From positions 186,001 to 250,000 of the forward strand of contig NZ_CP121274.1 of assembly GCF_029639405.1 (NCBI RefSeq): a stretch of DNA of 64,000 bases, given 5' to 3'. A program made the translations under genes and the position numbers. This DNA is from Microbacterium proteolyticum. Its GTDB lineage: Bacteria > Actinomycetota > Actinomycetes > Actinomycetales > Microbacteriaceae. Shown in pieces: positions 1,099 through 42,852 of this stretch (positions are counted from its first letter, which is position 1; the number at the start of each line of letters is the position of its first letter). The notes below the pieces were generated by a model. That model searched no databases, had not been told where the DNA came from, and was given only the letters and a program-made list of their open reading frames with translations.

Positions 1099-1176
1099 CG
1101 AGGGCCCACGATCCGGTCGAGTGCCCACGTTCCGGTCGACTCATTCGTGGGCGCTCGACCGGATCGTGGGCCCTCG
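1099..1176. repeat. Palindrome family A, copy 1 (3' side of gene 1201-2184)
   Basis: An inverted repeat with 31-nt arms (1099-1129 and 1146-1176, one mismatch) around a 16-nt loop ending in CATT. The inner part of each arm carries CCCACGATCCGGTCGA or its complement. A homologous copy with the same loop signature lies at 2293-2362 on the other side of the adjacent gene. More distant relatives are at 31311-31499 and 33941-34014. No coding content is apparent between 785 and 1200. Confidence 0.9.
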
Positions 1177-1200
1177 CCGTCCGACACGATGCCCGCAAGC

Positions 1201-2184
1201 TCACGGCGGGAGGCGGACACCGAACGAACGCAGGCGCTCGGCAAGCGTTTCCGGGGTGGCGATGTCGCGGAAGCCGCCGCGACACACGCGCCACTGAGTG
1301 GTTCCGCGAATCCAGTCCTCTCGACGCTTCTCTGCCAAGACGACGTCATCGATCGACCTCCCCGCCCGCAGATCCCGATCGCGATACTTTCCCTCACCAT
1401 CGAACTCCCAGAACGTGCGGACCTGGGGCAACCCGATGTCGGCGAAATACATCGAGCCCGACGGTCCCGCGATCGCCACCTGCACGTCCATATCGCGGAA
1501 TCCGAGCCGGAACAGTTGGAGTCGACTGACGCTTTCCCCCGGCAACTCGGCGCGCGCATCAGCGAACTCGATCAGCCATCGGGCCGCGGTGACACCGCGC
1601 CGGCCGGCCGACCGCGCCGCACGTTCTCGCATCCGGTCCCGCCAGGCCTCTTGCCTCGCCCCGTCCACGCCGTGGCCCTCACCCGCCACGCGTCGGACGG
1701 CGGCATCCGCACACGAGACCGACACTTCGAGCCCGCAGGTCCGCGCGACATCGAAAACCGTCCTCTCGAGCGAGGTGCACCGGATACCGTCGATCTCGAC
1801 GACATCACCCTCGTCGAGCCGGTCACGACGTCGGCGAACGCCCGGGCGACTCGAGCCGCGGGAACCGGGCGCCAGAGTGAGCTCCACGGGCTGAGCCATG
1901 AAGCGGTACTGCGGTAGATCGTGCAGAACCGCAGCGGAGAGGTGCGAGACGACGGCACCCCCATCCCGCATACGCGCGACGACCGCCAGCGTGTCGAGCC
2001 GGTGCCGCGCGGCGGGGCGGAGATCGCTCACTTCACCTCGTCCGGCGTACATCCCACGGTGAACACGCTCCCACGGCCCATCCGACGAGGCGCGGAGCCG
2101 TCTCGCCGCAACGTCTCTTTCGAGAAGCTGCTCCCTCGAGCGCAGGACGGCACGAGCTTCGGCTAGGGAGAGGTCACGCGGCAT
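1201..2184 (-). CDS. AbiEi-like winged-helix / restriction-endonuclease-fold protein (copy 1)
   Basis: 327 aa. The N-terminal half resembles the AbiEi antitoxin-like winged helix (RVHRGMYAG, then SHLSAAVLHDLP, then GIRCTSLERTVFDVA). The C-terminal half has a DUF559/Vsr-like nuclease core: ADIGLPQVRTFWEFDGEGKY followed by EKRREDWIR. The same order of motifs occurs in the proteins at 13537-14490 and 41901-42794, so the three are paralogues. Databases usually call this family 'hypothetical' or 'type IV TA AbiEi family antitoxin'. No cognate AbiEii toxin lies beside it. Both ends are bracketed by palindrome family A. The ATG at 2184 is a tentative start: its GAAGGG is unusually close. DNA binding or nicking is inference. 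Confidence 0.75.
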   Translation of the reverse strand: MPRDLSLAEARAVLRSREQLLERDVAARRLRASSDGPWERVHRGMYAGRGEVSDLRPAARHRLDTLAVVARMRDGGAVVSHLSAAVLHDLPQYRFMAQPVELTLAPGSRGSSRPGVRRRRDRLDEGDVVEIDGIRCTSLERTVFDVARTCGLEVSVSCADAAVRRVAGEGHGVDGARQEAWRDRMRERAARSAGRRGVTAARWLIEFADARAELPGESVSRLQLFRLGFRDMDVQVAIAGPSGSMYFADIGLPQVRTFWEFDGEGKYRDRDLRAGRSIDDVVLAEKRREDWIRGTTQWRVCRGGFRDIATPETLAERLRSFGVRLPP

Positions 2185-2292
2185 CCCTTCAGCGTGCCCG
2201 GCCCCTCGCCCGCCTTTTCGCCCCGTTCCGCGGTTCTGTGGACGGCCCGCCGTATCGATCCCCTGTGCAGGGCACCCGTCGGCGCCACCCAC

Positions 2293-2362
2293 CGCCCACG
2301 ATCGGGTCGAACGCCCACGGCGCGGTCGCCCCATTCGTGGGCGCTCGACTGGATCGTGGGCG
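2293..2362. repeat. Palindrome family A, copy 2 (5' side of gene 1201-2184)
   Basis: 27-nt arms (2293-2319 and 2336-2362, three mismatches) around a 16-nt loop that shares CGGTCG and a terminal CATT with copy 1. Both copies lie in the same orientation, about 1.2 kb apart, with only the AbiEi/REase-like gene between them. Confidence 0.88.
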
Positions 2363-2442
2363 CTCGCGACGCAGCCACCGACCCGCAGGACACACCGCCG
2401 CGCCGAACGACCCGGGCGCCCGACCGGGTTAGTCTCGAACGC

Positions 2443-3117
2443 ATGTCCCCCGAGCTCGTCGCCTCCCGCAGCGCCGACCTCGAGTCGCGGATCGTCGCCG
2501 ATTCCCGCGACCGTGTCGCGTGGATCCGGGCGCGCTCGCGCGGCATCACCGCGACCGACGTCGCAACACTCACCAGCACGAACGCGATCGCCCGGGCGGC
2601 GGATGCCAAGCTCCTGGGCTCGAACTTCTCGGGCAACGCCTACACGGCGCACGGCCGTCGCCGCGAGCCCGAGATCGCGGCCTGGGTGGCCGCGACGCAC
2701 GGCATCCAGCCCTCGTCGGCGCTGTATCACGCGGTCGTGGAGAGGCGGCATCTGGCCACCCCCGACGGCGTGGTCGTCGACGGGGAGGGACGCATCGTCC
2801 TCGCCGAGATCAAGACGACGAACAAGGCGTGGCGCTCGATCCCCCGCACGTACCTGCGCCAGGTGTGGTGGCAGCAGCACGTCCTCGGCGCCGAGCGCAC
2901 GCTGGTCGCGTGGGAACAGCACGACGGTTTCATCCCGGTCGGCGACGAGCCCCGCTGCCAGTGGGTGGATCGCGACGAGAAGGAGATCGCGTCCCTCGTC
3001 CGCCTCGCGACCTCCCTCATCGACGAGCTCTACCGCCGCACGACCGCCGGACGCGCTCCCGCTCCTCGCCCGGAGCCGACGGAGAGGTACCGCGCGCTCG
3101 CGCTCCTCGAGGGATAG
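2443..3117 (+). CDS. YqaJ-family viral-recombinase-like nuclease
   Basis: 224 aa. The N-terminal GITATDVATL and the later LAEIKTTN (E-x-K) fit the YqaJ/lambda-exonuclease PD-(D/E)XK fold, with the metal-binding Asp of TPDGVVVD between them. Phage relatives are 5'-3' exonucleases working with a RecT-like annealing protein. None is present here and no other phage gene is nearby, so this is the stand-alone chromosomal form seen in actinobacteria. The ATG at 2443 lies seven bases after TAGTCT (2430-2435), which suggests a leaderless transcript. The stop codon is part of the first operator of the following transporter. Substrate and role are unknown. Confidence 0.8.
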   Translation: MSPELVASRSADLESRIVADSRDRVAWIRARSRGITATDVATLTSTNAIARAADAKLLGSNFSGNAYTAHGRRREPEIAAWVAATHGIQPSSALYHAVVERRHLATPDGVVVDGEGRIVLAEIKTTNKAWRSIPRTYLRQVWWQQHVLGAERTLVAWEQHDGFIPVGDEPRCQWVDRDEKEIASLVRLATSLIDELYRRTTAGRAPAPRPEPTERYRALALLEG

Positions 3118-3163
3118 TTGACCCGAATCAAACACTTCGCGTATAGTTGATCCTCGTCAACTA
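3115..3163 (+). promoter_or_regulatory. Promoter with tandem MarR-type operators
   Basis: A promoter TTGACC (3118-3123), 18-base spacer, TATAGT (3142-3147). It is overlapped by two 20-bp dyads of the same form: TAGTTGA-N6-TCAAACA at 3115-3134 (one mismatch) and TAGTTGA-N6-TCAACTA at 3144-3163 (perfect). One dyad covers the -35 and the other the -10, so a bound dimer would block RNA polymerase. The MarR gene at 4910 ends the operon, so negative autoregulation is the natural reading (inference). Confidence 0.85.
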
Positions 3164-3213
3164 ACGCGCCGACGTCGTCGCGGCATCCTTCTTCCTCCCC
3201 TGGAGAGCTCCGC

Positions 3214-4908
3214 ATGACCGCCTCCCTCCCCGAGACCGCCGCGCCGCGGCGCGTTCTCCCCGCCCTCATCGGACTGCTGCTCGGCATGTTCGTGTCGATG
3301 CTGGCATCCACCGTCGTCTCGACCTCGCTGCCGGTCATCGTCCACGACCTGTCCGGCGACCAGAACGCCTACACGTGGGTGATCACCGCGACGCTGCTGA
3401 CGACCGCCATCTCCACACCGATCTGGGGCAAGCTCGCCGACCTGTTCAACCGCAAGGTGCTGATCCAGGTCGCGATCGCCATCTTCGTGCTGGCGACGGC
3501 CGCCGCCGGGTTCTCGCAGAACACCGACATGCTGATCGCCTTCCGCGCCGTGCAGGGCCTCGGCGCCGGTGGCCTGGCCGCCCTCAGCCAGGTGATCATG
3601 GCCGACATCATCAGCCCGCGCGAGCGCGGTCGCTACATGGGCCTGTTCGGCGCGGTGATGGCCGTCGCCACCGTTGGCGGCCCGCTCCTCGGCGGAGTGA
3701 TCACGGATGCCTTCGGCTGGCGGTTCAACTTCTTCGTCGCCCTTCCCTTCGCGGTGGCGGCGCTCCTCATCCAGCAGCGCACCCTGCACCTCCCGAAGCG
3801 CGCGAAGCGCAAGGTCAAGATCGACTACCTCGGCATCGTGCTGCTGTCGACCGCCGTGTCGCTCCTGCTGATCTGGGTGACCAACGCCGGCCGCTCGTTC
3901 GACTGGGCCAGCACCGAGACGGTCCTCATGGTCGGCGGAGCCGTCCTCGCGGCGATCCTCTTCATCGTGGTGGAGCTGCGCTCGTCCGAGCCGCTCGTGC
4001 CGCTCACGCTCTTCCGGGATGCCACCTTCACCCTCGCCACGATCGCCTCGATCGCGACGGGTCTGGCCATGTTCGGCACCTCGGTGTTCCTCAGCCAGTA
4101 CATGCAGATGGCCCGGGGCGCCACGCCCACCGAGGCCGGCGTCATGACCATCCCCATGATCGCGGGCCTCCTGCTGGCATCCGTCATCGTCGGTGCGCTC
4201 ATCACGCGCTTCGGACACTGGAAGCCGTTCCTCATCGTCGGCGGCGTGCTGCTCATCGCGGGCACCTACCTGCTGTCCACGATCCACTACGACACCAACT
4301 TCGCCCTCGTGTCGGTGTACATGTTCCTGCTCGGCGCGGGCGTCGGCATGACCATGCAGAACCTCGTCCTGATCGTGCAGAACACCGCCGACCCCGCGCG
4401 TATGGGCGCGGCCAGCTCCGGCGTGACGTTCTTCCGCAGCCTCGGCGGCACCATCGGCGTCTCGGTCATGGGCGCGGTGCTCGCGAGCACGGCGACAGGG
4501 CTGTTCACCGACCGCGCGGCCGACCTGCAGGCCGCGATCCTGGGACTCGGCTCGGCCGGGGCCCCGGTCGCCGAGGCCCTGCAGTCGGGCACGATCCCCC
4601 AGGTGTCGAGCCTGCCCGAGACGGTCCGCGTGATCGTCGAGGACGTCTACGCCCAGTCCATCGCCCACGCGTTCCTCATCGCGGTGCCGGTGGCGGTCGT
4701 CAGCCTGCTGGCGATCCTCTTCCTACCCAACCGCCCGCTCACGCGCATGACGACGTCCGAGCGCGTCTCGGCGAGCGAAGCCGACCTCGCCACCGTGTCC
4801 GTCCCGGGGGCCATGGCGACGCTGTCGACCACGGGGACGGTGGAGACGGTGGATGCCACACACCGTCACCGCACCCGTTCGGGCGCCCCGATGGGGGAGG
4901 ATGGGTGA
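3214..4908 (+). CDS. MFS multidrug exporter, DHA2 (EmrB/QacA) type
   Basis: 564 aa, the length of 14-helix DHA2 transporters. Visible signatures are motif A in the loop after helix 2 (GKLADLFNRK, about residue 72) and the antiporter motif in helix 5 (GGPLLGGVITDAFGW, about residue 152). Long hydrophobic helices run through residue 510, followed by a polar tail. It should export hydrophobic or cationic drugs by proton antiport at the membrane. GGAGAG lies upstream of the ATG. It overlaps or abuts marR downstream and is preceded by two operator dyads, so it is probably induced by its own substrates. Confidence 0.9.
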   Translation: MTASLPETAAPRRVLPALIGLLLGMFVSMLASTVVSTSLPVIVHDLSGDQNAYTWVITATLLTTAISTPIWGKLADLFNRKVLIQVAIAIFVLATAAAGFSQNTDMLIAFRAVQGLGAGGLAALSQVIMADIISPRERGRYMGLFGAVMAVATVGGPLLGGVITDAFGWRFNFFVALPFAVAALLIQQRTLHLPKRAKRKVKIDYLGIVLLSTAVSLLLIWVTNAGRSFDWASTETVLMVGGAVLAAILFIVVELRSSEPLVPLTLFRDATFTLATIASIATGLAMFGTSVFLSQYMQMARGATPTEAGVMTIPMIAGLLLASVIVGALITRFGHWKPFLIVGGVLLIAGTYLLSTIHYDTNFALVSVYMFLLGAGVGMTMQNLVLIVQNTADPARMGAASSGVTFFRSLGGTIGVSVMGAVLASTATGLFTDRAADLQAAILGLGSAGAPVAEALQSGTIPQVSSLPETVRVIVEDVYAQSIAHAFLIAVPVAVVSLLAILFLPNRPLTRMTTSERVSASEADLATVSVPGAMATLSTTGTVETVDATHRHRTRSGAPMGEDG

Positions 4909-4909
4909 C

Positions 4910-5374
4910 GTGACCCACGAAGACGACGCCGAGAGGCACGCCGCCGTGCAGGCGCTCGAATCGTCGTTCTCGGAGCTGATGACCACGTTCCGCCGCTACG
5001 TGGCCGAGGCGGCGGAACGGGTCAGCCCGGGAATGCTTCCGGCGACGTTCAAGACGCTGTCGGTGGTGAGCCGGTTCGGGCCGATGACGCTGTCGGCTCT
5101 GGCCGAGCGACTCGCCGCGGACAAGGGCTTCCTGAGCCGGTCGATCAGCGAGCTCGAAGAGATGGGGCTCGTCACCCGGACGCCCGACCCCAACGACCGG
5201 CGGTCGCGTCTCATCGCCGTCACCGAGCTCGGTCACGACCGTCTGCGCGATGCCCGCGCCCCGCACGAGAGCCGCCTGTACGAGGCGCTCGCGGACTGGT
5301 CGGTCGACGAGATCGGGAACCTGTCGACGATGTTGCACGCCCTCGCCGTGGGCGGGGTCCCCGAGCGCAACTGA
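4910..5374 (+). CDS. MarR-family transcriptional repressor
   Basis: About 154 aa. The winged helix runs LSALAERLAADKGFLSRSIS into LEEMGLVTRTPDPNDRRSR, the classic recognition helix and wing with the conserved D-x-RS-R. The GTG at 4910 has GGAGG (4896-4900) nine bases before it. An ATG at 4901 would have no spacing, so 4910 was chosen; the protein could be three residues longer. Its start is one base after the stop of the MFS gene, giving translational coupling. It probably represses the MFS operon by binding the dyads at 3115-3163. Confidence 0.87.
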   Translation: MTHEDDAERHAAVQALESSFSELMTTFRRYVAEAAERVSPGMLPATFKTLSVVSRFGPMTLSALAERLAADKGFLSRSISELEEMGLVTRTPDPNDRRSRLIAVTELGHDRLRDARAPHESRLYEALADWSVDEIGNLSTMLHALAVGGVPERN

Positions 5375-5508
5375 TCCTCCGGCCGGCGGCGCCGACGAGG
5401 CGACGCGACACGGTGACCGAGGTGTAACACCGCCGAGACAATGTCGCGCTTGACTGAGGGAGTCGAGACGGAGTCGCCGTCGACGTGACCCCCGAGGAGG
5501 AGCGCCCG

Positions 5509-6531
5509 ATGAGATTCCGATCGTCGCGTCCCGAGGCCAGCGTCGAGGCGCCCGGTCCCACACTTCCCGAGACCATGCGCGCCGCGGTCCTGGACGCCCC
5601 CGGCGAGCCCGACGCCCTGCATGCCGCGACGGTCCCCGTCCCCACCCCGATCCTCAGCGAGGTGCTCGTCCGCATCGTCGCGGCCGGCATCAACCCGATC
5701 GACGCCAAGACCCGCGCCGGTCGCGGCGCGTGCGGCGCGATCACGTCGTGGCCGGCGACACTGGGCTACGACTTCAGCGGCGTCGTGGTCCAGGCTCCGT
5801 ACGAGGGGCATCCGTTCCCGCCGGGAACCGAGGTGTTCGGGATGACGCCGACACCGCGGACCCCCGGGACGTACGCCGAGTACGCGGTCGTCCCCTCCCT
5901 CTCGCTCGCCCGAAAGCCCACGTCGCTCTCGCACGTCGAAGCCGCCGGCGTGCCGCTCGCGGCCCTCACGGCGTGGGGCCTCGTCGTCGAGACGGCGCTG
6001 GCGCACGCGAACCAGCGCATCCTCATCCACGCCGGGAGCGGCGGGGTGGGGCACTTCGCGGTGCAGTTCGCCGCCTACTTCGGTGCGCACGTCATCGCCA
6101 CCGGGTCGCCCCGCAACCTCGACTGGCTCCGCGAGCTGGGTGCGGCGGAGGTCGTGGACCATACCGCGGTGCGGTTCGAGGATGCCATCGCCGCCGTCGA
6201 CGTCGTCGTCGACCTCGTGGGCAACGTTCACGACGACACCGGCACGCGGTCCCTCGAGGTGCTGCGTCCGGGGGGATTGCTCATCGAGGTCCCGACGGGC
6301 GCGTGGACCGGCTTCCGCGAAGCGGCCTCGGCGCGCGGCATCCGCTCGACCGGGTACAAGGTGATCCCCGACGGGAGCGCACTGGCGACGATCGCGCGCC
6401 TCCTGGATTCGGGAGCCGTGCGCGTCTTCGTCGACCGCGTCTTCGATCTCGAGGATGCCGCCGACGCCCACCGCGAGCTCGAGAAGGGGCACACGCGCGG
6501 CAAGATCGTGCTGCGCGTCAGCGACGACTGA
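5509..6531 (+). CDS. NADP-dependent quinone-oxidoreductase-like protein (zinc-less MDR)
   Basis: 340 aa medium-chain dehydrogenase/reductase. The N-terminal GroES-like domain (AGINPIDAKTRAG, LGYDFSGVV) is followed by a Rossmann domain with GSGGVGHFAVQFA at about residue 170. The catalytic zinc cysteines of alcohol dehydrogenases are absent, so it belongs to the quinone/enone reductase branch. GAGGAGG lies eight bases before the ATG at 5509; an in-frame GTG further upstream was rejected. Its last 14 bases overlap the end of the convergent lysG-like gene. The physiological substrate cannot be deduced. Confidence 0.85.
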   Translation: MRFRSSRPEASVEAPGPTLPETMRAAVLDAPGEPDALHAATVPVPTPILSEVLVRIVAAGINPIDAKTRAGRGACGAITSWPATLGYDFSGVVVQAPYEGHPFPPGTEVFGMTPTPRTPGTYAEYAVVPSLSLARKPTSLSHVEAAGVPLAALTAWGLVVETALAHANQRILIHAGSGGVGHFAVQFAAYFGAHVIATGSPRNLDWLRELGAAEVVDHTAVRFEDAIAAVDVVVDLVGNVHDDTGTRSLEVLRPGGLLIEVPTGAWTGFREAASARGIRSTGYKVIPDGSALATIARLLDSGAVRVFVDRVFDLEDAADAHRELEKGHTRGKIVLRVSDD

Positions 6532-7420: not shown

Positions 7421-7489
7421 GAAGCGATGCTAATGCTTCGTCAGAATCATGAACTGTACTTGACCTTCGCGCGGCCCTACGGTCGGATC

Positions 7490-8140: not shown

Positions 8141-8155
8141 GGACACAATGGAGGC

Positions 8156-8434: not shown

Positions 8435-9483
8435 CCGAGGGCGTCGGGCAGTCCCGCGCGCAGTTCGGACAGGACGTCGGCGGCGTCGTCGAGCCGTGCG
8501 AGACCCGCCGCCTGGCCCGCCCACAGCGACAGCAGTTCGCCCTCCCCCGCCGCCGCGGCCGCGGCACGGAAGACACCCGTGAGCCAGTTCTGGGCGGGGA
8601 ACGGCGCGATGGCGTCGGCCGCCTCGATCTCGCGGACGGCTCGGTTCGGGATGCCGCGCGCCAGCCGCCCGCTCATGGCCCGCGTCAGCACGGTGTCGGT
8701 GTCCCGGGCGGCCGCGATCGACGCGCGATGGGCCGCCGTCGCCGCGGACTGCCGGCTGCGCAGGAACGCGGTGCCGACCTGCACGCCCTCCGCGCCCAGG
8801 GCGAGGGCGGCCGCCACCCCCCGGCGGTCGGCGACACCGCCGGCGGCGATCACGGGCACGGACACGGCGTCGACGACCTGCGGCACGAGCGCGAACGTCC
8901 CCACGAGGGACTCCGCGGGATCGCGCAGGAACGACACGCGGTGGCCCGCCGCCTCCATCCCGGTGGCGACCACGGCGTCCACACCCGCGTCCTCGAGCGC
9001 GACCGCCTCGGCGACCGAGGTGGCGGTGCCGACCAGACGGATGCCGTGCTCCCGGGCGCGCGCGACGGTCGCGGCATCCGGGACTCCGAACACCACGCTC
9101 ACAACGTCGGGCCGGGCGGCGAACACGGCGTCCAGCTGGTCGGCGAGGGCCGGGAGGAACGCGGCGGGGAGTTCCGGGCGCGCGGCCCCGGCGGCCTCGA
9201 ACAGCGGGGCCGTGGCATCCAGGACCGGGTCGAGATCGACGTCGGAGGGTCCCACCTCGTCACCGCGCGGCCACCACAGGTTGACGGCGATCGGCCGGTC
9301 CGTGGCCGCGCGCAGGCGGCCGATCGTGTCGTGGATGCGCTCGGGCGCGTACCCGTAGAGACCGAACGATCCGAGACCGCCGCCGTCGCTCACCGCGGCG
9401 GTCAGCTCGACGGACGACAGACCCCCGAAGGGCCCGAGGACGATCGGGACGTCGATCCCGAACAGCTCCGTCAGCCGTGACAC
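8431..9483 (-). CDS. Nitronate monooxygenase / 2-nitropropane dioxygenase-like flavoenzyme
   Basis: 350 aa TIM-barrel FMN protein. Visible signatures are IVLGPFGGLSS near the N-terminus, the FMN phosphate region VIAAGGVADRRGVAAALALG and GAEGVQVGTAFL, and a His in GMEAAGH. The GTG at 9483 begins two bases after the stop of the ABC ATPase, so it is the last gene of the amino-acid ABC operon. The link to amino-acid transport is not obvious; these enzymes detoxify nitronates and related compounds. Related dehydratase or enoyl reductase folds cannot be excluded. Confidence 0.82.
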   Translation of the reverse strand: MSRLTELFGIDVPIVLGPFGGLSSVELTAAVSDGGGLGSFGLYGYAPERIHDTIGRLRAATDRPIAVNLWWPRGDEVGPSDVDLDPVLDATAPLFEAAGAARPELPAAFLPALADQLDAVFAARPDVVSVVFGVPDAATVARAREHGIRLVGTATSVAEAVALEDAGVDAVVATGMEAAGHRVSFLRDPAESLVGTFALVPQVVDAVSVPVIAAGGVADRRGVAAALALGAEGVQVGTAFLRSRQSAATAAHRASIAAARDTDTVLTRAMSGRLARGIPNRAVREIEAADAIAPFPAQNWLTGVFRAAAAAAGEGELLSLWAGQAAGLARLDDAADVLSELRAGLPDALG

Positions 9484-9485
9484 GG

Positions 9486-10265
9486 TCAGTCCAGGGGGCG
9501 CAGGAGGCGATCGAGGAACCGGCGGGTCCGCTCCTTCTTCGGCGCCGTGAACAGCACCTCGGGGGCGCCGCGTTCCACGATCACCCCTTCGTCGAAGAAG
9601 AGCACCTCGTCGGCGACCTCGCGCGCGAAACCGAGTTCGTGGGTCACGATGACCATCGTCCACCCCTCGTCGGCGAGGCCGCGCAGCACCTTCAGCACCT
9701 CGCCCACCAGTTCGGGGTCGAGGGCGCTGGTCGGTTCGTCGAAGAGCAGCAGATCGGGCTGCAGCGCGAGCGCGCGCACGATCCCCACGCGCTGCTGCTG
9801 CCCGCCGGAGAGCTCCGAGGGGTAGGCGTCGCGCTTCTCGGTGAGCCCCACGCGGTCCAGCAGCGCCTCGGCACGCGCGGCGGCCTCGGCCTTGGGCACC
9901 CCGTGCGCCTGCACCGGGCCCTCGATGACGTTCTGCAGCACCGTCAGGTGCGGGAACAGGTTGTGATGCTGGAACACCATCGCGGAGCGGTCGCGCATCG
10001 CCGCGCGGTCGGACTTCCCCACCTTCCCGGCGAAGTCGATGGTCGGCCCGCCGTCGAAGTCCACGACACCCGCCTCCGGTGTCTCGAGGGCGTTGAGGCA
10101 CCGCAGGACCGTGGTCTTGCCCGAACCCGACGGTCCGATCAGAACGAGCACCTCGCCGCGGCGGACCTCCAGGTCGACCCCGTCGAGCACGCGGTTCGTG
10201 CCGAAGTTCTTCACGAGACCCCGGACCTGCAGCAGCGGGGTCAGAGCGTCGTCACCGTGCGACAT
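9486..10265 (-). CDS. Polar amino-acid ABC transporter ATPase (GlnQ/HisP family)
   Basis: 259 aa. Walker A is GPSGSGKTT (about residue 44), the signature motif LSGGQQQR, Walker [13 protein letters not shown] and the switch histidine in VTHELGF. The [16 protein letters not shown] segment is typical of the polar amino-acid uptake class. The gene overlaps the end of the permease by 14 bases, and its stop lies two bases before the next gene, so the four genes 11798-8431 form one operon. Confidence 0.93.
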
Positions 10266-10917
10266 GGCGGTCGAGCCTCCTCTCGAGCACTCCCTGCCCG
10301 GCGGAGAGCACGAGGCAGAACAACCAGTAGATCAGGGCGGCTTCCAGGTAGATCGCCATGAACTCGTAGGAGAACGCGGCGATGTTCTGAGCCTGCCGGA
10401 ACAACTCCGTGACCAGGATGAGGGATGCCAGCGAGCTGTCCTTCACGAGCGAGATGAACGTGTTCGACAGCGGCGGCACCGACACCCGGGCGGCCTGCGG
10501 CAGGATGATGCGCGTCAGGGTCTTGCTTGGCGAGAGACCGACCACGTGCGCCGCCTCCCACTGGCCGCGCGGGACCGACAGGATCGCGGCGCGGATGACC
10601 TCGGCGGCGTACCCGCCGACATTGAGCGAGAACGCGATGACCGCGGCCGGGAACGGGTCGATGACGATCCCCACCGCCGGCAGCCCGTAGAAGATCACGA
10701 ACAGCTGCACCAGCAGCGGGGTTCCGCGGATGACCGAGATGTAGAACCGCGCGATACCGCGCAGCACGACGTTGCGGGACAGCCGCAGCAACGCCATCGC
10801 CAGGGCGATGACGAGTCCGATGGCGAACGACGCCAGCGACAGCGGGATCGTCCCGCGCAATCCCACCAGCACCATCGGCCAGAACGAATCGAGCAGCAGG
10901 GTCCAGATGTCGTTCAC
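10252..10917 (-). CDS. Polar amino-acid ABC transporter permease
   Basis: 221 aa. It has the HisM/GlnP-type permease layout: an early hydrophobic helix, the family segment [19 protein letters not shown], and the EAA loop [23 protein letters not shown] that docks on the ATPase. The GTG start at 10917 is supported by AGGAGG seven bases upstream. An earlier in-frame start lacks hydrophobic or family character. It forms the membrane channel with the ATPase and binding protein encoded on either side. Confidence 0.92.
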
Positions 10918-13383: not shown

Positions 13384-13450
13384 GCGATTAACGGCATCCA
13401 CGACGAGACACGGCACGCCGAACCATTTCTCGCCGCGGACCGCGTTTTTC
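13384..13450. repeat. Palindrome family B, diverged copy (5' side of gene 13537-14490)
   Basis: The 67-nt stretch begins GCGATTAACGGCATCC and ends CCGCGTTTTTC. It aligns over its length with the downstream copies (GCGATAAACGGCATCC ... ATCGCGTTTATC) but has lost much of their symmetry. The rest of 13134-13536 holds the rplK leader and no other recognisable feature. Confidence 0.65.
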
Positions 13451-13536: not shown

Positions 13537-14490
13537 ATGTACCCTCTCGCCCTCCGAGGCCGCCCCGTGCCGCTCATCCGGACCGCGGATGCCGAGCGCG
13601 CGGGCCGTTACCCTCACAAGGCCAGCGACCTTCACCGCGTACGCCCCGGGGTGTACGCCCCCCGACCGGACTGGGATGCTCTCGCTCCCTGGGACCGATA
13701 CCTGGCGCGCGTGCACGCGTACTGGCTGATCCGTCCGGACGCGATCTTCTCGCACGAGTCGGCCGCCGCACTCCTGGGCCTGCCCACCTTCGGGCATCCC
13801 GTTCGCATCCACATCTTCGACTCGAGACGTTCCCGGTCACTCGTCTACGGCGACGTCGTCGCCCACACCAGTGCCGACGATCGCCGTTGCGCGACCGTTG
13901 AAGGGCAGCGGGTCACCCGCCCCGTCGACACGGTGACCGATCTCGTCCGCGCGTTGCCTCCCGCGTTCGGCCTGGCCGTTGCCGACGCTGCGGCGCGTCA
14001 GTTCGAGGTCACGCCGGACTGGGTCCGGGAGACGGTGTCTGCGCAGCGCTCGATTCGAGGGCGGCGCCGCGTCGAGTGGGTGTGCGACCACATGACCGGC
14101 GACGCGGAGTCCGTGGCGGAATCCGTGAGCAGGGCGGTCATGCACTGGCAGGGATTCCCGGAGCCGCTGCTCCAAGCCGAACATCGCGTGGCCGGCCGCG
14201 TGTACCGATCGGACTTCTGCTGGCCGGAGTTCCGGGTGCTCGGCGAGGTCGACGGATGGATCAAATACAGCCGAGACGATCCCTCCGAGGCGGCGTCGGC
14301 CCTGCGCGACGAGAAACGTCGCGAAGATGCCCTTCGGCGCGCGGGGTGGCGCATCGCGCGATGGGATTACGTCGGCGCCCTCCGTGGCGACGGGCCCTAT
14401 GACGCGCTGCGCGCCGCGGGCCTCCCCGTCACGCGCCCGACCGACGCCGCACAGCTGCTGGACGTCGGTCGGAACCCGCGCTCACGATGA
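13537..14490 (+). CDS. AbiEi-like winged-helix / restriction-endonuclease-fold protein (copy 2)
   Basis: 317 aa from the ATG at 13537; an in-frame ATG at 13468 would add 23 residues and neither has a clear ribosome binding site. The N-terminal half has the AbiEi-like pattern ([35 protein letters not shown]). The C-terminal nuclease-like core reads [19 protein letters not shown], then KY, then [18 protein letters not shown]. It is paralogous to the genes at 1201 and 41901. It lies on the plus strand between rplK and nusG, both minus, splitting genes that are adjacent in most bacteria. Palindrome family B flanks both sides. Confidence 0.75.
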
Positions 14491-14504: not shown

Positions 14505-14596
14505 GATGCCGCGCGCGCAGCCGAATATCGCGATAAACGGCATCCCCGGCGAAACACGCCACGGCAAGCCGTGTCTCATCGCCGATCGCGTTTATC
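14505..14596. repeat. Palindrome family B, copy 1 of a 92-bp direct repeat
   Basis: It starts 14 bases after the AbiEi/REase-like gene. It contains nested symmetry: an outer GATAAACG/CGTTTATC pair and an inner CACGGC-AA-GCCGTG. It matches 14684-14775 at all but three of 92 positions. Confidence 0.9.
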
Positions 14597-14683: not shown

Positions 14684-14775
14684 GATGCCGCGCGCGCAGC
14701 CGAACATCGCGATAAACGGCATCCCCCACGAAACACGCCACGGCAAGCCGTGTCTCATCGCCGATCGCGTTTATC
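14684..14775. repeat. Palindrome family B, copy 2 of a 92-bp direct repeat
   Basis: Same orientation as copy 1 and displaced by 179 bases; three mismatches. The pair fills most of the 412-base gap between the AbiEi/REase-like gene and nusG. The remainder is unannotated sequence plus the nusG terminator. Confidence 0.9.
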
Positions 14776-31288: not shown

Positions 31289-31310
31289 CCCACCCTTCTC
31301 CTGCCCAGAC

Positions 31311-31499
31311 CACACGATCCGGTCGAACGCACCCGCTACGGTCGCCCGATTCGTGTGCGCTCGGCCGGATCGTGTGCGCTCGGCTCGATCGTGTGCGCTC
31401 GGTCCGATCGTGTGCGCTCGGCCAGATCACACGATCCGGTCGAACGCACCCGCTGTGGACGCCCGGACCGTGTGCGCTCGGCCGGATCGTGTGCGCTCG
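31311..31499. repeat. Palindrome family A (CACACG subtype), expanded cluster
   Basis: Two copies of CACACGATCCGGTCGAACGC begin at 31311 and 31428. Six copies of GTGTGCGCTCG lie at 31353, 31372, 31391, 31410, 31470 and 31489, mostly in a strict 19-base period. The first palindrome pairs 31311-31332 with 31353-31376. Compared with the copies around gene 1201-2184, CCCACG has become CACACG. No gene is present between the sugar operon and TetR. Confidence 0.88.
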
Positions 31500-33940: not shown

Positions 33941-34014
33941 GAGCGCACACGTTCCAGCCGAGCGCACACGAACGGGACGCCCGGAACGTGTGCGCTCGAC
34001 CCGAACGTGTGCTC
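33941..34014. repeat. Palindrome family A (CACACG subtype), solitary copy
   Basis: Arms 33941-33970 and 33987-34014 flank a 16-nt loop; they match with a two-base offset and a few mismatches. The sequence GAGCGCACACG is shared with the 31.3 kb cluster. Just upstream (33891-33938) are five CCCC runs, a composition also seen next to copy 1 at 1099. Confidence 0.85.
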
Positions 34015-34042
34015 TGGGCGCCACGCCGTGGAGACGCGGCCG

Positions 34043-35518: not shown

Positions 35519-35547
35519 GTCGGGATGATCTCACCGAAACAGAAGAA

Positions 35548-36962: not shown

Positions 36963-36977
36963 CCCTCTCTTTCCACA

Positions 36978-37025
36978 GTCCAAGACACGCCGTATCCGCC
37001 GTACCGCATGCGGCGTGTCTTGGAC
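36978..37025 (+). repeat. Long hairpin between aceA and aceB
   Basis: A perfect 15-bp stem (36978-36992 GTCCAAGACACGCCG with 37011-37025) and an 18-nt loop. It starts 16 bases after the aceA stop and has no U-tract. It could terminate or stabilise the aceA end, or be a solitary member of another palindrome family. Confidence 0.85.
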
Positions 37026-37082
37026 ACTCGGCCTCCGGTGGCGCCACGCGCTACGCGCCGACACAGACAGAAAGCCACGATC

Positions 37083-38741
37083 ATGACCCTCATCGAACCC
37101 CCTCCCACCACCGCCCGCCGCGGCCCCGAGCCCACGGCATCCACCCCCGCTCCGCACCTGCGGATCGAGCGTCCGCTCGAGGGCCGCGACCGGGAGATCC
37201 TCACCCCCGCCGCCCTCGCCTTCCTCACCGAGCTGCACGACCGCTTCGGCCGTCGCCGTCACGACCGGCTCGCCGCGCGCGAACGCCGCCGCTTCGAGAT
37301 CGGAAACGGCGACGACCCGCACTTCCGGTCCGAGACGGCGCACATCCGCGAGGACCCGTCGTGGCGCGTGGCCGGTGCGGGTCCCGGCCTCGAGGACCGC
37401 CGCGTCGAGATCACGGGCCCGACCGACCCGAAGATGACGATCAACGCGCTGAACTCCGGTGCGCGGGTGTGGCTGGCCGACCAGGAGGATGCCACCTCCC
37501 CCACGTGGCGCAACGTCATCGGGGGCCAGCTCTCGCTGTTCGACGCCATCCGCGGGCAGCTGAGCTTCACGAGCCCCGAGGGCAAGGAGTACCGCGTCAC
37601 CGCCGAGCGCACGCCCACGATCGTGATGCGCCCGCGCGGCTGGCACCTGCCCGAGAAGCACATCACCGTGATCGACCGCGCGGGCCGCGAGCTGCCGGCA
37701 TCCGGGTCTCTCGTGGACTACGGGCTGTACGTCTTCCACAACGCGCACGCGCTCATCGCGGCGGGTCGCGGACCGTACTTCTACCTGCCGAAGATCGAGT
37801 CCGCCGATGAGGCGCGACTGTGGGACGACGTGTTCTCGTTCACCGAAGAGCGTCTGGGCCTCGCCCATGGCACGATCCGCGCGACGGTCCTCATCGAGAC
37901 GCTCCCCGCGGCGTTCGAGATGGAGGAGATCCTCTTCGCCCTCCGCGACCACTGCGCGGGCCTCAACGCGGGCCGCTGGGACTACATCTTCTCGATCATC
38001 AAGACCTACCGCGGCCGCGGGGCGCGGTTCGTCCTGCCCGACCGCAGCGAGGTGACGATGACAGTGCCGTTCATGCGGGCGTACACCGAGCTGCTCGTGC
38101 GCACCTGCCACAAGCGCGGGGCGTACGCGATCGGCGGCATGAGCGCCTTCATCCCCAACCGCCGGAAGCCCGAGGTGACCGAGGCGGCGTTCGAGAAGGT
38201 CGCCGCCGACAAGCGGCGCGAGGCCGGCGACGGCTTCGACGGCACGTGGGTGGCCCACCCCGACCTGATCCCGGTGGCCCGCGCGGAATTCGACGCCGTG
38301 CTCGGCGAGCACGAGAACCAGCTCGACCGGCTGCGCGAGGACGTCGAGGTGCGGCCCGAGCAGCTCCTCGACCTGCGGATCGGCCTGCCGATCACCGCGG
38401 GCGGGGTGCGCGGCAACGTGGCGGTGGCGATCCGCTACATCGAGGCGTGGCTGCGGGGCCTCGGGGCCGTCGCGATCGACGACCTCATGGAGGACGCCGC
38501 GACCGCCGAGATCTCGCGCTCGCAGATCTGGCAGTGGATCCACCAGGACCGCTCCACCGCCGACGGCACCCGCATCACCCGCGAGTACGTCGAGGGGCTG
38601 CTCGGCGACGTGCTCGCCGACACGACCCGCTTCGAGGGCGACCGTTTCGACGACGCCGCCGAGGTGTTCCACGAGGTGGCGCTGCGCGAGGAGTTCCCGG
38701 CGTTCCTCACCCTGCCGGCGTACGCGAAGTACCTCGACTGA
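37083..38741 (+). CDS. aceB: Malate synthase A
   Basis: 552 aa, typical for the A isoform. Signatures are ADQEDATSPTWRNVIGGQ, the catalytic Arg/Asp region GPYFYLPKIESADEARLW and RWDYIFSIIKTYRG, and the C-terminal GVRGNVAVAIRYIEAWLRG. It condenses glyoxylate with acetyl-CoA to malate. The ATG at 37083 was chosen because the residues before it are unlike the family. Ribosome binding site weak (AGAAAG). It pairs functionally with aceA upstream. Confidence 0.96.
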   Translation: MTLIEPPPTTARRGPEPTASTPAPHLRIERPLEGRDREILTPAALAFLTELHDRFGRRRHDRLAARERRRFEIGNGDDPHFRSETAHIREDPSWRVAGAGPGLEDRRVEITGPTDPKMTINALNSGARVWLADQEDATSPTWRNVIGGQLSLFDAIRGQLSFTSPEGKEYRVTAERTPTIVMRPRGWHLPEKHITVIDRAGRELPASGSLVDYGLYVFHNAHALIAAGRGPYFYLPKIESADEARLWDDVFSFTEERLGLAHGTIRATVLIETLPAAFEMEEILFALRDHCAGLNAGRWDYIFSIIKTYRGRGARFVLPDRSEVTMTVPFMRAYTELLVRTCHKRGAYAIGGMSAFIPNRRKPEVTEAAFEKVAADKRREAGDGFDGTWVAHPDLIPVARAEFDAVLGEHENQLDRLREDVEVRPEQLLDLRIGLPITAGGVRGNVAVAIRYIEAWLRGLGAVAIDDLMEDAATAEISRSQIWQWIHQDRSTADGTRITREYVEGLLGDVLADTTRFEGDRFDDAAEVFHEVALREEFPAFLTLPAYAKYLD

Positions 38742-38747
38742 CGGCAC

Positions 38748-38781
38748 ACGACGGGCCGGGACCTCGGCTCCGGCCCGTCGT
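38748..38781. terminator. Terminator between convergent aceB and clc
   Basis: A 12-bp perfect stem (ACGACGGGCCGG 38748-38759, CCGGCCCGTCGT 38770-38781) starts seven bases after the aceB stop and precedes the end of the convergent channel gene. It can serve both directions; no U-tract. Confidence 0.75.
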
Positions 38782-38819
38782 GGCGTGCGGAATCGCTACG
38801 CGCGCCCGGGGTCCGGGCG

Positions 38820-40115
38820 CTACTCGCGTCCGGGGTCGCGCGGAGCGAAGCGGCGCAGGCTCGCGCGCGAGGTAAGCCGCGCGGCGGCGAGCGACCCGGC
38901 TACGGCGAGGAAGATCGGCAGCAGCAGGTCGAAGCCGGTCGCGGTGAACTCGATCACGAGCACGATCGCGGTGAACGGCGCGCGCATGTTCGACGCGAGG
39001 AACGCCGCCGCGGCCACGATCGCGAGGCCCGTGGCATCCGCACCCGGCCAGACGAGCGCCCACGCCGCGGCGGCCGCAGCGCCGAGGCTCGCGCCGATCG
39101 CGACCGACGGCTGGAGCGTGCCGCCGACGGCTCCGGAGCCGAGCGACACGACCGTCGCGACGTACTTCAGCGCGGCGAGGGCGAGCAGGAGCAGTGCGGG
39201 CTGCGTGAGATCAAAACCCGCCGTCGCGAGCGCGCGACCGTTGCCGAGGATCAGCGGGAAGACCGCGCCGAGCGCCCCGACCGCCGTGAAGGTCACGGGC
39301 AGCGCGACGAGCAGCTTCCACCCCGTCGGCCGCACCTTCGCCAGGAGCGACGTCACGGCCCCGAAGCTCGTGGCGCCCCACCCCATGAGCGGTCCGATGA
39401 GGATCGCCGCCACGATGAGCGACGCGTTCACGTCGATGGATGCCACGTGGTACAGCGAGTCGTCCCCCACCAGCGGGCGTGCCACGAGCGTGGCGATCGC
39501 GCTGACCGAGAGGGCGACGACGGCCGCGCCGACGCTGAACTGCGCGAGCAGGATCTCGATCGCGAAGAGCGCTCCGCCGAGCGGCACGTTGTACACCGCT
39601 GCGAGACCGGCGCCCGCGGCGGCGGCGATGAGGATGCGCCCCCAGCGCGCGTCGAGGCGGAACCAACGCACGATCTTCGAGCCGGCCATCGCGGAGAGTT
39701 CACGCGGGGCGACCTCCTTGCCGATCGAGGCGCCGAGGGCGACCGAGGTGACCTGGATCACGGTGTCGGCGAGCGTCTCCCACCAGGGCATGTGCGCGCC
39801 GGCGACGCCCTGTTCGACGGTGGCGATTTTCCGGCCGAAGCGACGCAGCAGGTACCAGCCGACGGCGGCGACGACACCCGCGCCGCCCACGGTCACGATC
39901 GGCAGCCACCACACCGCCGGGGACGCCAGGCCGTCGAGGAACGGCCCTTCTTCGTGGCCCCAGACGAGGTGCTCGACGGTGTGGACGATCCAGACCAGCA
40001 GGAGCACGGCGAGCCCCGTGGCCACCCCGACGATCGCGGTCGCCAGCCCCAGACGGAGCAGGATGCCGAGCCCCCGACGATGCACGCGCGTGCGTTCCGG
40101 GGCCTCTGCTGTCAC
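38820..40115 (-). CDS. ClC-family chloride channel/antiporter
   Basis: 431 aa with about 10-12 hydrophobic helices. The selectivity-filter motifs appear as GASIGKEVAPREL (counterpart of GREGP), AAVYNVPLGGALFAIEILL, and SGAVGGTLQPSVAIGASLG (counterpart of GxFxP). The gating Glu is retained in GKEVAP. It moves chloride, possibly with protons, across the membrane. It starts with GTG at 40115. It is divergent from the small membrane protein at 40171. A purely transporter versus channel mode cannot be decided. Confidence 0.9.
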   Translation of the reverse strand: MTAEAPERTRVHRRGLGILLRLGLATAIVGVATGLAVLLLVWIVHTVEHLVWGHEEGPFLDGLASPAVWWLPIVTVGGAGVVAAVGWYLLRRFGRKIATVEQGVAGAHMPWWETLADTVIQVTSVALGASIGKEVAPRELSAMAGSKIVRWFRLDARWGRILIAAAAGAGLAAVYNVPLGGALFAIEILLAQFSVGAAVVALSVSAIATLVARPLVGDDSLYHVASIDVNASLIVAAILIGPLMGWGATSFGAVTSLLAKVRPTGWKLLVALPVTFTAVGALGAVFPLILGNGRALATAGFDLTQPALLLLALAALKYVATVVSLGSGAVGGTLQPSVAIGASLGAAAAAAWALVWPGADATGLAIVAAAAFLASNMRAPFTAIVLVIEFTATGFDLLLPIFLAVAGSLAAARLTSRASLRRFAPRDPGRE

Positions 40116-40170
40116 GACGCCACGCTAACGCACCGGCGACAGCCCGCCCGCCACGCGCTAGCGTGACCGC

Positions 40171-40494
40171 ATGGCCTCTGTCTCCCCGGCCGGTCGACGC
40201 GCCAGCGACGGCTTCGGCATCGTCGCGATCATCCTCGCCGCGTTCATGCTGCTGCCGGCGCTGATGATCTTCCTGATCGGGCTCGCCCCCGGCATGAACG
40301 CGATCTGGTGGCTCGGCGTCGTGCTCCTGCCGATCATGGGATTCCTCGGGCTCGTCGCCCTCGTCGTCGGGATCGTCGGGATCGTCCTGCGCGTCCGTCA
40401 GCAACGGAACCCGGTCCTCTCGATCATCGGCACCGCCCTCGGGGCCGTCCTCGTCCTCCCCGTCGTGTGGGTGTTCTTCAGCTCCGCCGTGTAA
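40171..40494 (+). CDS. Small membrane protein of unknown function
   Basis: 107 aa with three hydrophobic helices (residues about 15-38, 44-71 and 83-105) and short Arg-containing loops. I do not recognise a family beyond generic DUF-type membrane proteins. TAGCGT lies six bases before the ATG at 40171, so the mRNA is probably leaderless. It stands alone between clc (divergent) and aspC. Confidence 0.75.
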   Translation: MASVSPAGRRASDGFGIVAIILAAFMLLPALMIFLIGLAPGMNAIWWLGVVLLPIMGFLGLVALVVGIVGIVLRVRQQRNPVLSIIGTALGAVLVLPVVWVFFSSAV

Positions 40495-40557
40495 CCCTTC
40501 GGTGACGCCCGTCGCCGAGCCCGCGGCATCCCGGGCGTGCCGAGTAGGCTCTACGCC

Positions 40558-41757
40558 GTGACCGACCGCGCCCCGCTCTCCCGCAAGCTCTCCGCCATCG
40601 CCGAATCCGCCACCCTCAAGGTCGACGCCAAGGCCAAGGCCCTGAAGGCCGCCGGCCGTCCCGTCATCTCGTACGCGGCCGGAGAGCCCGACTTCGCCAC
40701 CCCGCAGTTCATCGTGGATGCCGCCGCCGAGGCGCTGCACAGCCCGGCGAACTTCCGATACACCCCCGCCGCCGGACTCCCGGTGCTGCGCGAAGCCATC
40801 GTCGCCAAGACGCGGCGCGACTCGGGCCTGGAGGTCGCCCCGTCGCAGGTGATCGTGACCAACGGCGGCAAGCAGGCCGTGTACCAGGCGTTCCAGACCG
40901 TGGTGAACCCCGGCGACGAGGTGCTGCTGCCGGCCCCGTACTGGACGACGTACCCCGAGGCCATCGCCCTCGCCGACGGCGTGCCCGTCGAGGTGTTCGC
41001 CGGCGCCGACCAGGACTACAAGGTCACCGTGGCCCAGCTCGAGGCCGCTCGCACCGACAAGACGACCGTCCTCGTGTTCGTCTCGCCCTCCAACCCCACG
41101 GGCTCGGTCTACACGCCGGAAGAGACCGCCGAGATCGGCCGCTGGGCCCTCGAGCACGGCATCTGGGTCATCACCGACGAGATCTACCAGAACCTCACGT
41201 ACGAGGGCGCTCGCGCGGTGTCGATCGTCGAGGCCGTGCCCGAGCTCGCCGGGCAGACGATCCTCGTCAACGGCGTCGCGAAGACGTACGCGATGACCGG
41301 CTGGCGCGTCGGCTGGATGGTCGGACCGGCGGATGCCATCAAGCTCGCCGGCAACCTGCAGTCGCACCTGTCCAGCAACGTCAACAACATCGCCCAGATC
41401 GCCGCCGCCGCCGCACTGAACGGCCCCCAGGACGAGGCCGAGCAGTTCCGTCTCGCCTTCGACCGCCGCCGCCAGCTGATCGTGGGCGAGCTGTCGAAGA
41501 TCGACGGCGTCGAGGTCCCCAACCCGCTCGGCGCGTTCTACGTCTACCCCGACGTGCGCGGTCTGCTGGGCCGTGAGTGGGACGGCGTCACGCCGACGAC
41601 CTCGCTCGAGCTCGCCGACCTCATCCTCGAGAAGGCCGAGGTCGCGGTGGTCCCCGGCGAGGCCTTCGGCCCGAGCGGGTACCTCCGCCTGTCGTACGCC
41701 CTCGGCGACGAGGAACTGCTGGAGGGCGTCCAGCGCCTGCAGCGCCTGTTCTCCTGA
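40558..41757 (+). CDS. aspC: Class-I PLP aminotransferase (AspC-like)
   Basis: 399 aa. The Schiff-base Lys is in [17 protein letters not shown]. Other family signatures are [22 protein letters not shown] and [13 protein letters not shown]. It resembles aspartate/tyrosine aminotransferases of the I-gamma subgroup. The GTG at 40558 lies seven bases after TAGGCT (40545-40550), a typical leaderless start; the longer frame to 40537 would cross this -10 box. An AspC-like gene near murB-hadBA and secE is common in actinobacteria. Confidence 0.92.
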
Positions 41758-41774
41758 CGGACGTCGTTTCGCGC

Positions 41775-41830
41775 GAGTCGCCAAGATTTGTCGCCTCTGC
41801 CTCCGCGGAGACAACAATTCCTGGCGACTC
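41775..41830. repeat. Palindrome family C, copy 1 (5' side of gene 41901-42794)
   Basis: 23-nt arms (41775-41797 and 41808-41830, four mismatches). The outer arm contains GAGTCGCCAAGATTTGTCGC, which recurs perfectly as its reverse complement at 42829-42848. It starts 17 bases after aspC and may also act as its terminator. Confidence 0.9.
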
Positions 41831-41900
41831 ACGCGTGTGACCCTCCTCCACATGGGGACAACGAGGAACGGTCGGACGGCGGGCGCGACATCATCGGCGG

Positions 41901-42794
41901 ATGCCGCTCTCGCATCGCCCCATCGGACCCACGATCGCGTTCACCGTTGCGGAAGGGCGGGCGTACGGACTCTCGCCTAGCAGCCTCCGCTCGGTGGGGT
42001 GGGACGCGCCGTACTCGGGAACTCGGAGCCGACCGGATGCCACGGAGTTGCAGCGTCTAAGCGCATTGATGCGCGCTCTGCCGGATCATGCGTTCCTGTG
42101 CGGACCCTCCGCGGCCGTCCTTCTGGGGCTCCCTCTCCCCGCATCGCTCGGCCGAGCTGCGAAGGAGTCACCGACCATCGGCGTGCCGAGCGGATGCAAT
42201 CGCATCCGTCGCCCGGGAGTCACCGGCCGCTCACTCACCGTCGAGCCTTCCGACATCGTCGAAGTCGAGGGGTTGCGCTGCAGTTCGCCGTTGCGTACGT
42301 GGGCCGAGCTTGCCGAACTCCTCGACGTCGGCCCTCTGACCGCCATCTCGGACCGCTTGCTGGCGTGCCGCGATCCTCTCGCGACGCGCGCGGACCTCGA
42401 GCGGATGCACCGACGGTTCCTCGGCGGGAGAGGATCGCGCCGGCGTCGGCTCGCCGTCGACTTCGCCGACGACCGGGCGGAGTCGCCGAGGGAGAGCGAG
42501 CTCCGTGTCCTTCTGATCCAAGCCGGTCTCCCCGTGCCCGAGAGCAACGTCGAGATCTTCGACGGTCATCGATTCGTGGCGCGCGTTGACCTGCTCTACC
42601 GCGGCGCACGCCTCGTCATCGAGTACGACGGCGACTACCACCGCGATCCGCGGCAATGGAGCCGCGACCAGTCTCGCCGCGCGGAGTTGGAGTCGCTGGG
42701 CTACCGGGTCAGCGTGGTGACGGCTCGCGACTTCGACGCCCCCGAAGCGCTGCTGATGCGCATCCGCCGCCTGCTGGGGCAAGCCCACGCGTGA
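41901..42794 (+). CDS. AbiEi-like winged-helix / DUF559-type nuclease-fold protein (copy 3)
   Basis: 297 aa. The N-terminal half has the AbiEi-like pattern (CGPSAAVLLGLPLP, VEVEGLRCSSPLRTWAELAE). The C-terminal half is the clearest DUF559 core of the three paralogues: ARVDLLYRGARLVIEYDGDY, then H, then a Q-S-R-R motif and LESLGYRVSVVTARDF. The Asp and Glu-x-Asp-Gly positions fit a Vsr-like metal site. The ATG at 41901 has GGCGG upstream. Palindromes of family C lie 70 bases before the start and across the stop codon. It sits between aspC and murB. Activity and target are unknown. Confidence 0.8.
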   Translation: MPLSHRPIGPTIAFTVAEGRAYGLSPSSLRSVGWDAPYSGTRSRPDATELQRLSALMRALPDHAFLCGPSAAVLLGLPLPASLGRAAKESPTIGVPSGCNRIRRPGVTGRSLTVEPSDIVEVEGLRCSSPLRTWAELAELLDVGPLTAISDRLLACRDPLATRADLERMHRRFLGGRGSRRRRLAVDFADDRAESPRESELRVLLIQAGLPVPESNVEIFDGHRFVARVDLLYRGARLVIEYDGDYHRDPRQWSRDQSRRAELESLGYRVSVVTARDFDAPEALLMRIRRLLGQAHA

Positions 42795-42852
42795 GTTGCC
42801 AAAATGTGTCGCCTCCGGCCCGCCGCAAGCGACAAATCTTGGCGACTCACGC
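42789..42852. repeat. Palindrome family C, copy 2 (overlaps stop of gene 41901-42794)
   Basis: 24-nt arms (42789-42812 and 42829-42852, three mismatches) with a 16-nt loop. The first arm includes the gene's TGA (42792-42794). The outer arm is the inverted partner of the outer arm at 41775. It ends four bases before the murB stop. Confidence 0.9.

Follow-up and report, generated by a model that had tools for sequence, protein, structure and literature searches.

Three related genes, which we call A, B, and C, lie in a 64-kb window of the genome of Microbacterium proteolyticum (G000; 3.97 Mb), and each of them is bracketed by palindromes of its own. By the window, we mean the whole stretch that was analyzed, C2:186001-250000. 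A preliminary description of this DNA, made from the sequence alone, had reported the three genes, a separate palindrome family on both sides of each, seven flanking palindromes in all, and solitary relatives of the A and B palindromes elsewhere in the window. The genes are real, the seven palindromes lie within a few bases of where they had been placed, each gene does have a separate family on both sides, and the solitary relatives are there as well. We found one more solitary palindrome, which belongs to a fourth family (F). The proteins fall into two types by their active-site motif: ExDGxxK[YF], or K type (A and B, and also D and E, which lie outside the window), and the rest, mostly ExDG..H, or H type (C, and also F and G). 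In window coordinates, the features are as follows.

1096-1179: palindrome A, on the 3' side of gene A; its 34-nt arms are 94% complementary, and the word GCCCACGWTCCGGTCGA recurs at 19 nt
1201-2184, minus strand: gene A; AbiEi-like N-terminal half and nuclease-like C-terminal half with ExDGxxKY; K type
2293-2362: palindrome A, on the 5' side of gene A
13384-13450: palindrome B, on the 5' side of gene B; imperfect and gapped
13537-14490, plus strand: gene B; K type
14505-14596: palindrome B, on the 3' side of gene B, first of two tandem copies
14684-14775: palindrome B, on the 3' side of gene B, second of two tandem copies
31303-31384 and 31428-31493: two solitary A-like palindromes
33942-34015: solitary A-like palindrome
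36978-37025: solitary family F palindrome; the F gene is outside the window, at G000:C2:324354-325244
41770-41835: palindrome C, on the 5' side of gene C
41901-42794, plus strand: gene C; H type; passes the Pfam cut-off for DUF559; its relatives, as a profile, match 3r3p
42789-42852: palindrome C, on the 3' side of gene C; overlaps the stop of gene C
46716-46780: solitary B-like palindrome

The proteins encoded by genes B and C are 33% and 30% identical to that of gene A, and a single gene lies between the bracketing palindromes in all three cases, with no partner gene there. AbiEi models from PADLOC match all three proteins (best E values of 8.4e-15 for A, 5.5e-10 for B, and 7.1e-4 for C). 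In an alignment of 30 members of the family (A3), Pfam AbiEi_4 matches the N-terminal half of 6, and, at E 0.01, MTES_1575 and DUF559 match 9 and 6. Gene C itself scores 24.5 against DUF559, above the cut-off of 20.6, and 25.9 against REase_MTES_1575, below the cut-off of 38.2; for genes A and B, nothing in Pfam matches up to E 0.1. Among PDB structures, the mobile-intron protein 3r3p, which we take to be I-Bth0305I, is matched by a profile built from C-type relatives (E 9.7e-5); a B-type profile has no match there up to E 1. Numbered as in gene B, the residues E195, D226, E237, G240, R262, and L291 do not vary among 30 divergent members. Judging by the motif, they fit a catalytic core of the PD-(D/E)XK/EDxHD kind that has been conserved.

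In the M. proteolyticum genome, a search for proteins with an AbiEi-like N-terminus and a nuclease-like C-terminus identified seven family members. Matching palindromes stand on both sides of every one of them, and no two of the seven have the same palindrome family. The four members outside the window (L006-L009) are bracketed by these families:

D: word GGTTTGGGGCG...
E: word GCGAGACTGCA...
F: word GTTCAGTGTCCAAGACACGCGGA...
G: word GTGTCCCA..., degraded in this genome

The arrangement is not peculiar to one genome. All 59 genomes of the genus carry the family, and hairpins are concentrated beside its genes. To measure this, we used every family match listed for single-contig genomes, which gave 38 loci (20 kb each, 14 genomes). 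The density of hairpins with a score of at least 15, on each side of the gene, is 2.46 per kb in the nearest 150 nt and 1.05 per kb at 150-300 nt, and it falls to 0.08-0.12 at 2-9.5 kb. We then compared the 400 nt before each gene with the 400 nt after it, and counted a similarity score of at least 20 as a pass. The complete set for this test came from 22 genomes with no more than five contigs each and comprised all 90 of their family genes that score at least 128 bits; the controls were 677 genes from the same stretches, identified by a simple codon-position caller, with no family gene within 1.5 kb. The left and right flanks match for 75 of the 90 family genes and for 2 of the 677 controls (Fisher P 5.9e-86). 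At stricter cut-offs, the counts are 58 and 1 (at least 25) or 45 and 0 (at least 30). Without the seven genes from M. proteolyticum, 68 of 83 pass, and none of the 90 genes has N in its flanks. The palindromes are mostly 58-84 nt long. The 5' hairpin, where detected (46/90 genes), ends a median of 85 nt before the start codon, and the 3' hairpin (39/90) starts a median of 21 nt after the stop codon. Not all of the palindromes make ungapped hairpins: those of family B are gapped, so an ungapped scan misses all of them and a repeat search recovers one, and they are clearest from the alignment of left and right flanks, with a score of 31.5.

We rejected chance or base composition as the cause of these matches, given the hairpin density near the genes and the 75/90 versus 2/677 passes. 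Transcription terminators were also considered and rejected: 125 of the 677 controls have a flank hairpin (score of at least 14), yet just 2 have a matching pair. The strongest control pair (L133:1602-4418) consists of GGATGCC...GGCATCC hairpins that look like terminators. In another set of 80 loci from public genomes, which are mainly Microbacterium and include some metagenome-assembled genomes, 54 of the 72 testable loci pass, versus 24 of 576 pairings of foreign flanks; this set overlaps the 22-genome set at least once (L322 / G036). The preliminary description had predicted that paralogues in related genomes would be bracketed by palindromes of their own and that unrelated genes would not have such palindromes as often. 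Both of these sets and the controls agree with this.

If each protein has a private palindrome, then the palindrome should be found where the protein is found. For a census of the 22 genomes, we wrote four exact patterns from gene-flanking copies and used the reversed patterns as a control, which had zero matches in all 22. The F pattern accounts for 112 words in M. proteolyticum and 42 in G007; G010 has just two, which stand alone, and the other 19 genomes have none. The F-type protein is confined to M. proteolyticum and G007, so the pattern is in 2/2 genomes with the protein and 1/20 others, where, as for the other patterns, the protein types are approximate because they are based on flanking words and on the tip order of an unsupported tree. 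The D pattern is in 8/9 genomes with a D-type gene, including a frameshifted copy in G004, and in 0/13 others. The E pattern is in 4/4 genomes with an E-like protein (G000, G015, G035, and G054) and in 0/18 others; these four proteins are adjacent tips in the tree. The G pattern is in 4/5 genomes with a G-type gene (G008, G032, G035, and G054) and in 1/17 others (G049). The fifth genome is that of M. proteolyticum itself, which has a G-type gene but no exact G pattern, as its G words are decayed. G035 has 28 forward matches, of which 26 are solitary copies, and G032 has three, of which one is solitary. So the four patterns are nearly absent where the protein type is lacking, and the expectation that copies of each palindrome track its cognate protein has held up.

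Some of the departures can be described further. G031 is the lone genome with a D-type gene that lacks the D pattern, and it holds a tandem array of diverged words: in L049 (G031:C1:629700-649600), the gene at 9442-10425 is flanked by tandem units of about 41 nt, with one GGGGCGCG-type word in each. The frameshifted gene in G004 is L117 (G004:C1:1920507-1921392), and dispersed D palindromes persist in that genome. In G049, there are three orphan G palindromes (C1:182366, 275275, and 3550690) and no recognized G-type protein. These are what one would expect of relics left behind by the loss of the gene.

The architecture of the palindromes also depends on the type of protein. In K-type palindromes, each arm carries one word twice, with a spacing of exactly 19 nt, and 19 ranks best of the 23 periods tried for 20 of 23 K loci. 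If we group the loci by palindrome sequence, the 19-nt period is found in 15 of 16 K-type clusters and in 1 of 28 H-type clusters. All 72 testable loci of the public set are K type, and the period is present in 43 of the 50 with a hairpin and in 14 of their 16 clusters, some of which may be the same palindrome families as in the first set. The exceptions are the E copy of M. proteolyticum (L007) and the public-set clusters L316 and L355. L057 and L069 depart from the period within clusters that conform. That palindromes of unrelated sequence keep the same geometry points to one kind of protein that reads them.

How do the copies behave? With all families taken together, 27 of 33 solitary palindromes (50-100 nt long, with a score of at least 17) are extragenic, in DNA of which our gene caller leaves 24% non-coding. 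Copies of a palindrome are more alike within genomes. For family G, the inner identity is 0.665 within genomes and 0.458 between genomes, and the nearest neighbor is from the same genome for 33 of 34 copies. Gene-flanking G copies are closer to solitary copies from the same genome (0.656) than to the gene-flanking copies of other genomes (0.418). In G035, all 28 E copies are 67 nt long, and the 8-nt spacers between the outer and inner words reappear in new pairings: 66 pairs of copies have exactly one spacer in common and two pairs have both. Within a copy, the two spacers resemble each other less than random pairs do (0.491 vs. 0.562). We read these spacers as a sign that arms may be reassorted between copies and that there are probably two classes of arms. 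In the window, by eye, the solitary A-like copies have GCACACG (once GCACCCG) and the copies beside gene A have GCCCACG. The flanks of a near relative of gene A, L013 in G053, carry GCACACG, so the word beside our gene A may have changed recently. Rfam at the gathering score finds a single tRNA in the whole window and nothing else.

Copies also differ within a species. G486 is the same species as our genome, and we compared stretches that were picked for suspected differences in their word lists. Three of the 24 aligned F copies from our genome and 6 of the 30 from G486 lack a counterpart. One E copy is confined to G486, and the aligned D (2) and A-like (3) copies are common to both genomes. 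Near G000:C2:1135478, a cluster has four F copies in G486 and two in our genome. In relatives, the gene C element is absent as a whole: among the matches listed, 36 align across the joined flanks, and the six relatives that we aligned at this site have a short gap between the neighboring genes and no palindrome. The solitary F copy at 36978 gives no clean presence or absence, as two relatives have diverged versions and one has a remnant. Pairwise alignments of the junctions resolved no signature of a target-site duplication, and they are uninformative because the intergenic DNA is too diverged and the long alignments over the gene C element are forced.

The family extends well beyond the genus. 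At E <= 1e-20, it is present in 209 of 296 genomes of Actinomycetes, which represent 92 of the 114 genera sampled. We scored at most seven candidates per genome in this survey. Among the best 29 new loci from the class, one was too short, and 21 of the other 28 pass the flank test, versus 25 of 756 foreign pairings that reach 20. Of the 21 loci from other genera, 16 pass. Two of the seven same-genus loci duplicate genes of the 90, and one other family contributes several loci that have a palindrome family in common. More distant relatives, from a sister DUF559 family, have matching flanks in 5 of 14 cases, or in 4 of 12 if we exclude L129 (runs of N) and L120 (a core-gene remnant). L123, L133, and L135 had no family match by the script and so are outside this scored set. 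By reading, only L125 and L126 have clear pairs of palindromes, which bracket L125:9651-10496 and L126:9640-10494; these genes share the motif DADSGLESL. Because genes of the sister family can have bracketing palindromes of their own, the arrangement extends past the family that we studied.

We think it quite probable that this is an independently evolved system that resembles REPIN/RAYT, in which a nuclease akin to homing endonucleases recognizes its own palindrome and maintains or spreads it. The preliminary description had proposed a system like REP (repetitive extragenic palindromes) and RAYT but with a different enzyme, and the bracketing, the tracking, and the finding of no Y1 transposase gene in the 22 genomes support this. 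The binding, cutting, and spreading of the palindrome by the protein are what we infer from these associations. The gene product would be a DNA-binding nuclease, with an AbiEi-type N-terminal half and a Vsr/DUF559-like C-terminal half, and its private target would be the palindrome of roughly 60-85 nt that brackets its gene and has further copies dispersed around that genome. Each palindrome family would have one stable and mostly vertically inherited enzyme gene, which would sustain a population of small non-autonomous palindromes in trans. Most likely, the AbiEi-like half would bind the words, as a dimer or as a higher assembly that matches the inverted words, and the protein would then cut or nick the palindrome or DNA close to it. 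When the break is repaired with another copy as the template, palindromes would be converted, duplicated, or relocated, and the outcome would be homogenization, reassortment of arms, tandem clusters, and turnover.

Several observations weigh against this reading. The flank test is failed by 15/90 genes in the 22 genomes, 18/72 loci in the public set, and 7/28 in the class set. The census is partly circular in genomes that bear the gene, because gene-flanking copies were the source of the patterns; independent evidence for tracking comes from the solitary copies and from the zeros in genomes that lack the type. There are orphan palindromes with no recognized gene (the three in G049 and the two F words in G010), and there are genes without their pattern (the D-type gene of G031 and our own G-type gene). 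The 19-nt period can be read only where a hairpin is detected, which is at 25 of 43 K loci and 30 of 47 H loci. The copy differences within the species could be insertions or deletions, as the two are indistinguishable. A comparison of flanks and proteins at non-homologous positions gave little or no support: flank similarity declines only slightly as the proteins diverge (Spearman -0.11), and close pairs of proteins are no more alike in their flanks than pairs with shuffled labels (means of 15.3 and 17.7). Proteins that are close to each other are mostly positional orthologues.

One rival explanation is regulatory. The AbiEi-like half would be an autoregulator, the palindromes would be its operators, and the dispersed copies would be its regulon, with the nuclease half serving some other purpose such as defense. 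AbiEi represses its own operon via inverted repeats, all three proteins have AbiEi-type matches, and the 5' hairpin, where detected, ends a median of 85 nt before the start codon. Against it stand the other copy, which, where detected, lies a median of 21 nt behind the gene, the tandem clusters, the differences within a species, the greater likeness of copies within genomes, and the absence of the gene C element as a whole from relatives. We consider it unlikely. We have similar doubts about a homing element, in which the gene would move by cutting solitary palindromes, as its targets, and copying itself in, with the flanking palindromes as homology arms. The match of the C-type profile to a mobile-intron protein suits this idea, as do the contiguous empty sites of the gene C element (36 junction-crossing rows among the matches listed). 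Also, according to a review, the EDxHD enzyme I-Bth0305I binds as a dimer to a target almost 60 bp long (PMC3943268). However, the six aligned gene C sites have a short gap and no palindrome, so they are not vacant targets, and close proteins are mostly at conserved positions, whereas palindromes are many.

It is also conceivable that the nuclease genes are passengers that happen to lie between copies of palindromes that an unrelated enzyme moves. The action of the nuclease on the palindrome is presumed, and our survey for transposases was limited to Y1_Tnp. On the other side, every gene has a private family, four patterns track the protein type, and the architecture of the palindrome shifts with the type of protein. 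Y1_Tnp (PF01797, the domain of RAYT) was found in 0 of 22 genomes, with a control that was positive in 5 of 14; on this basis, we rejected a RAYT elsewhere in the genome. We give the passenger explanation very little weight.

So we favor the REPIN/RAYT-like reading. A more sweeping version of it is, in our view, only a little better than an even bet: that Actinomycetes have a class-wide counterpart of REPIN/RAYT, with diverse AbiEi-headed nucleases that each read their own word; that the type of nuclease sets the geometry of the target (four words with a 19-nt period for ExDGxxK and no such period for ExDG..H); and that cut-and-copy repair spreads, shuffles, and homogenizes the palindromes. 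If the system is what we think it is, then there is a second and unrelated class of enzymes that own extragenic palindromes, and the arrangement known from REPIN/RAYT has evolved more than once. It would also suggest a function for DUF559/AbiEi-like proteins, which are now named as antitoxin-domain, endonuclease-domain, or hypothetical proteins, and it might explain REP-like repeats in genomes that lack RAYTs. Because the presumed target is beside each gene, the recognition code can be read from the sequence and is directly testable, and there would be a natural catalogue of dozens of pairs of proteins and DNA words.

Several known systems are similar in part. Among the publications listed, judged by title, opening of the abstract, or terms, we found none that joins DUF559/AbiEi-type nucleases with dispersed palindromes, which is a weak negative, as most subscription papers and all of bioRxiv were outside the search. 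The AbiE type IV toxin-antitoxin systems have the AbiEi-like half, but the proteins studied here have a nuclease half as well, and the palindromes of A, B, and C enclose no partner gene. The EDxHD homing endonucleases have a nuclease domain that may be related to that of C-type members (the 3r3p match), and the target length of I-Bth0305I is close to the lengths of our palindromes. Unlike them, our genes are, as far as we have read, free-standing outside introns and inteins, and the palindromes that resemble targets are numerous and flank the gene on either side. In TIRtrons/TIRYT, according to PMC3733652, long terminal inverted repeats flank the gene and some form moderately abundant families. 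Our genes are also flanked by long repeats, but each flank is itself a palindrome, and TIRtrons/TIRYT use a tyrosine transposase. The same article describes CGTC REPs as REP-type palindromes with no known dedicated transposase; they are short, CGTC-tagged, and, in its passages on them, without gene association, unlike the gene-associated palindromes here.

The closest parallel is REPIN/RAYT. As described in PMC3116915, these systems have single-copy enzyme genes, possibly several per genome, each beside its own palindrome family, as well as dispersed extragenic palindromes, tandem clusters, and largely vertical inheritance. Here too, the enzyme gene is flanked by its own palindromes, and dispersed, extragenic copies track the enzyme. 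The differences are in the components: the enzyme is an AbiEi/DUF559-Vsr-like protein instead of a Y1 HUH transposase, and the palindromes, of the length given above, have a fixed 19-nt word period in the K type. The Y1 transposase that defines REPIN/RAYT did not turn up in the search of the 22 genomes, and its place is taken by an unrelated protein, so the system described here does not belong to REPIN/RAYT. We rate the system as new in its parts and, by analogy, probably similar to REPIN/RAYT in its logic.

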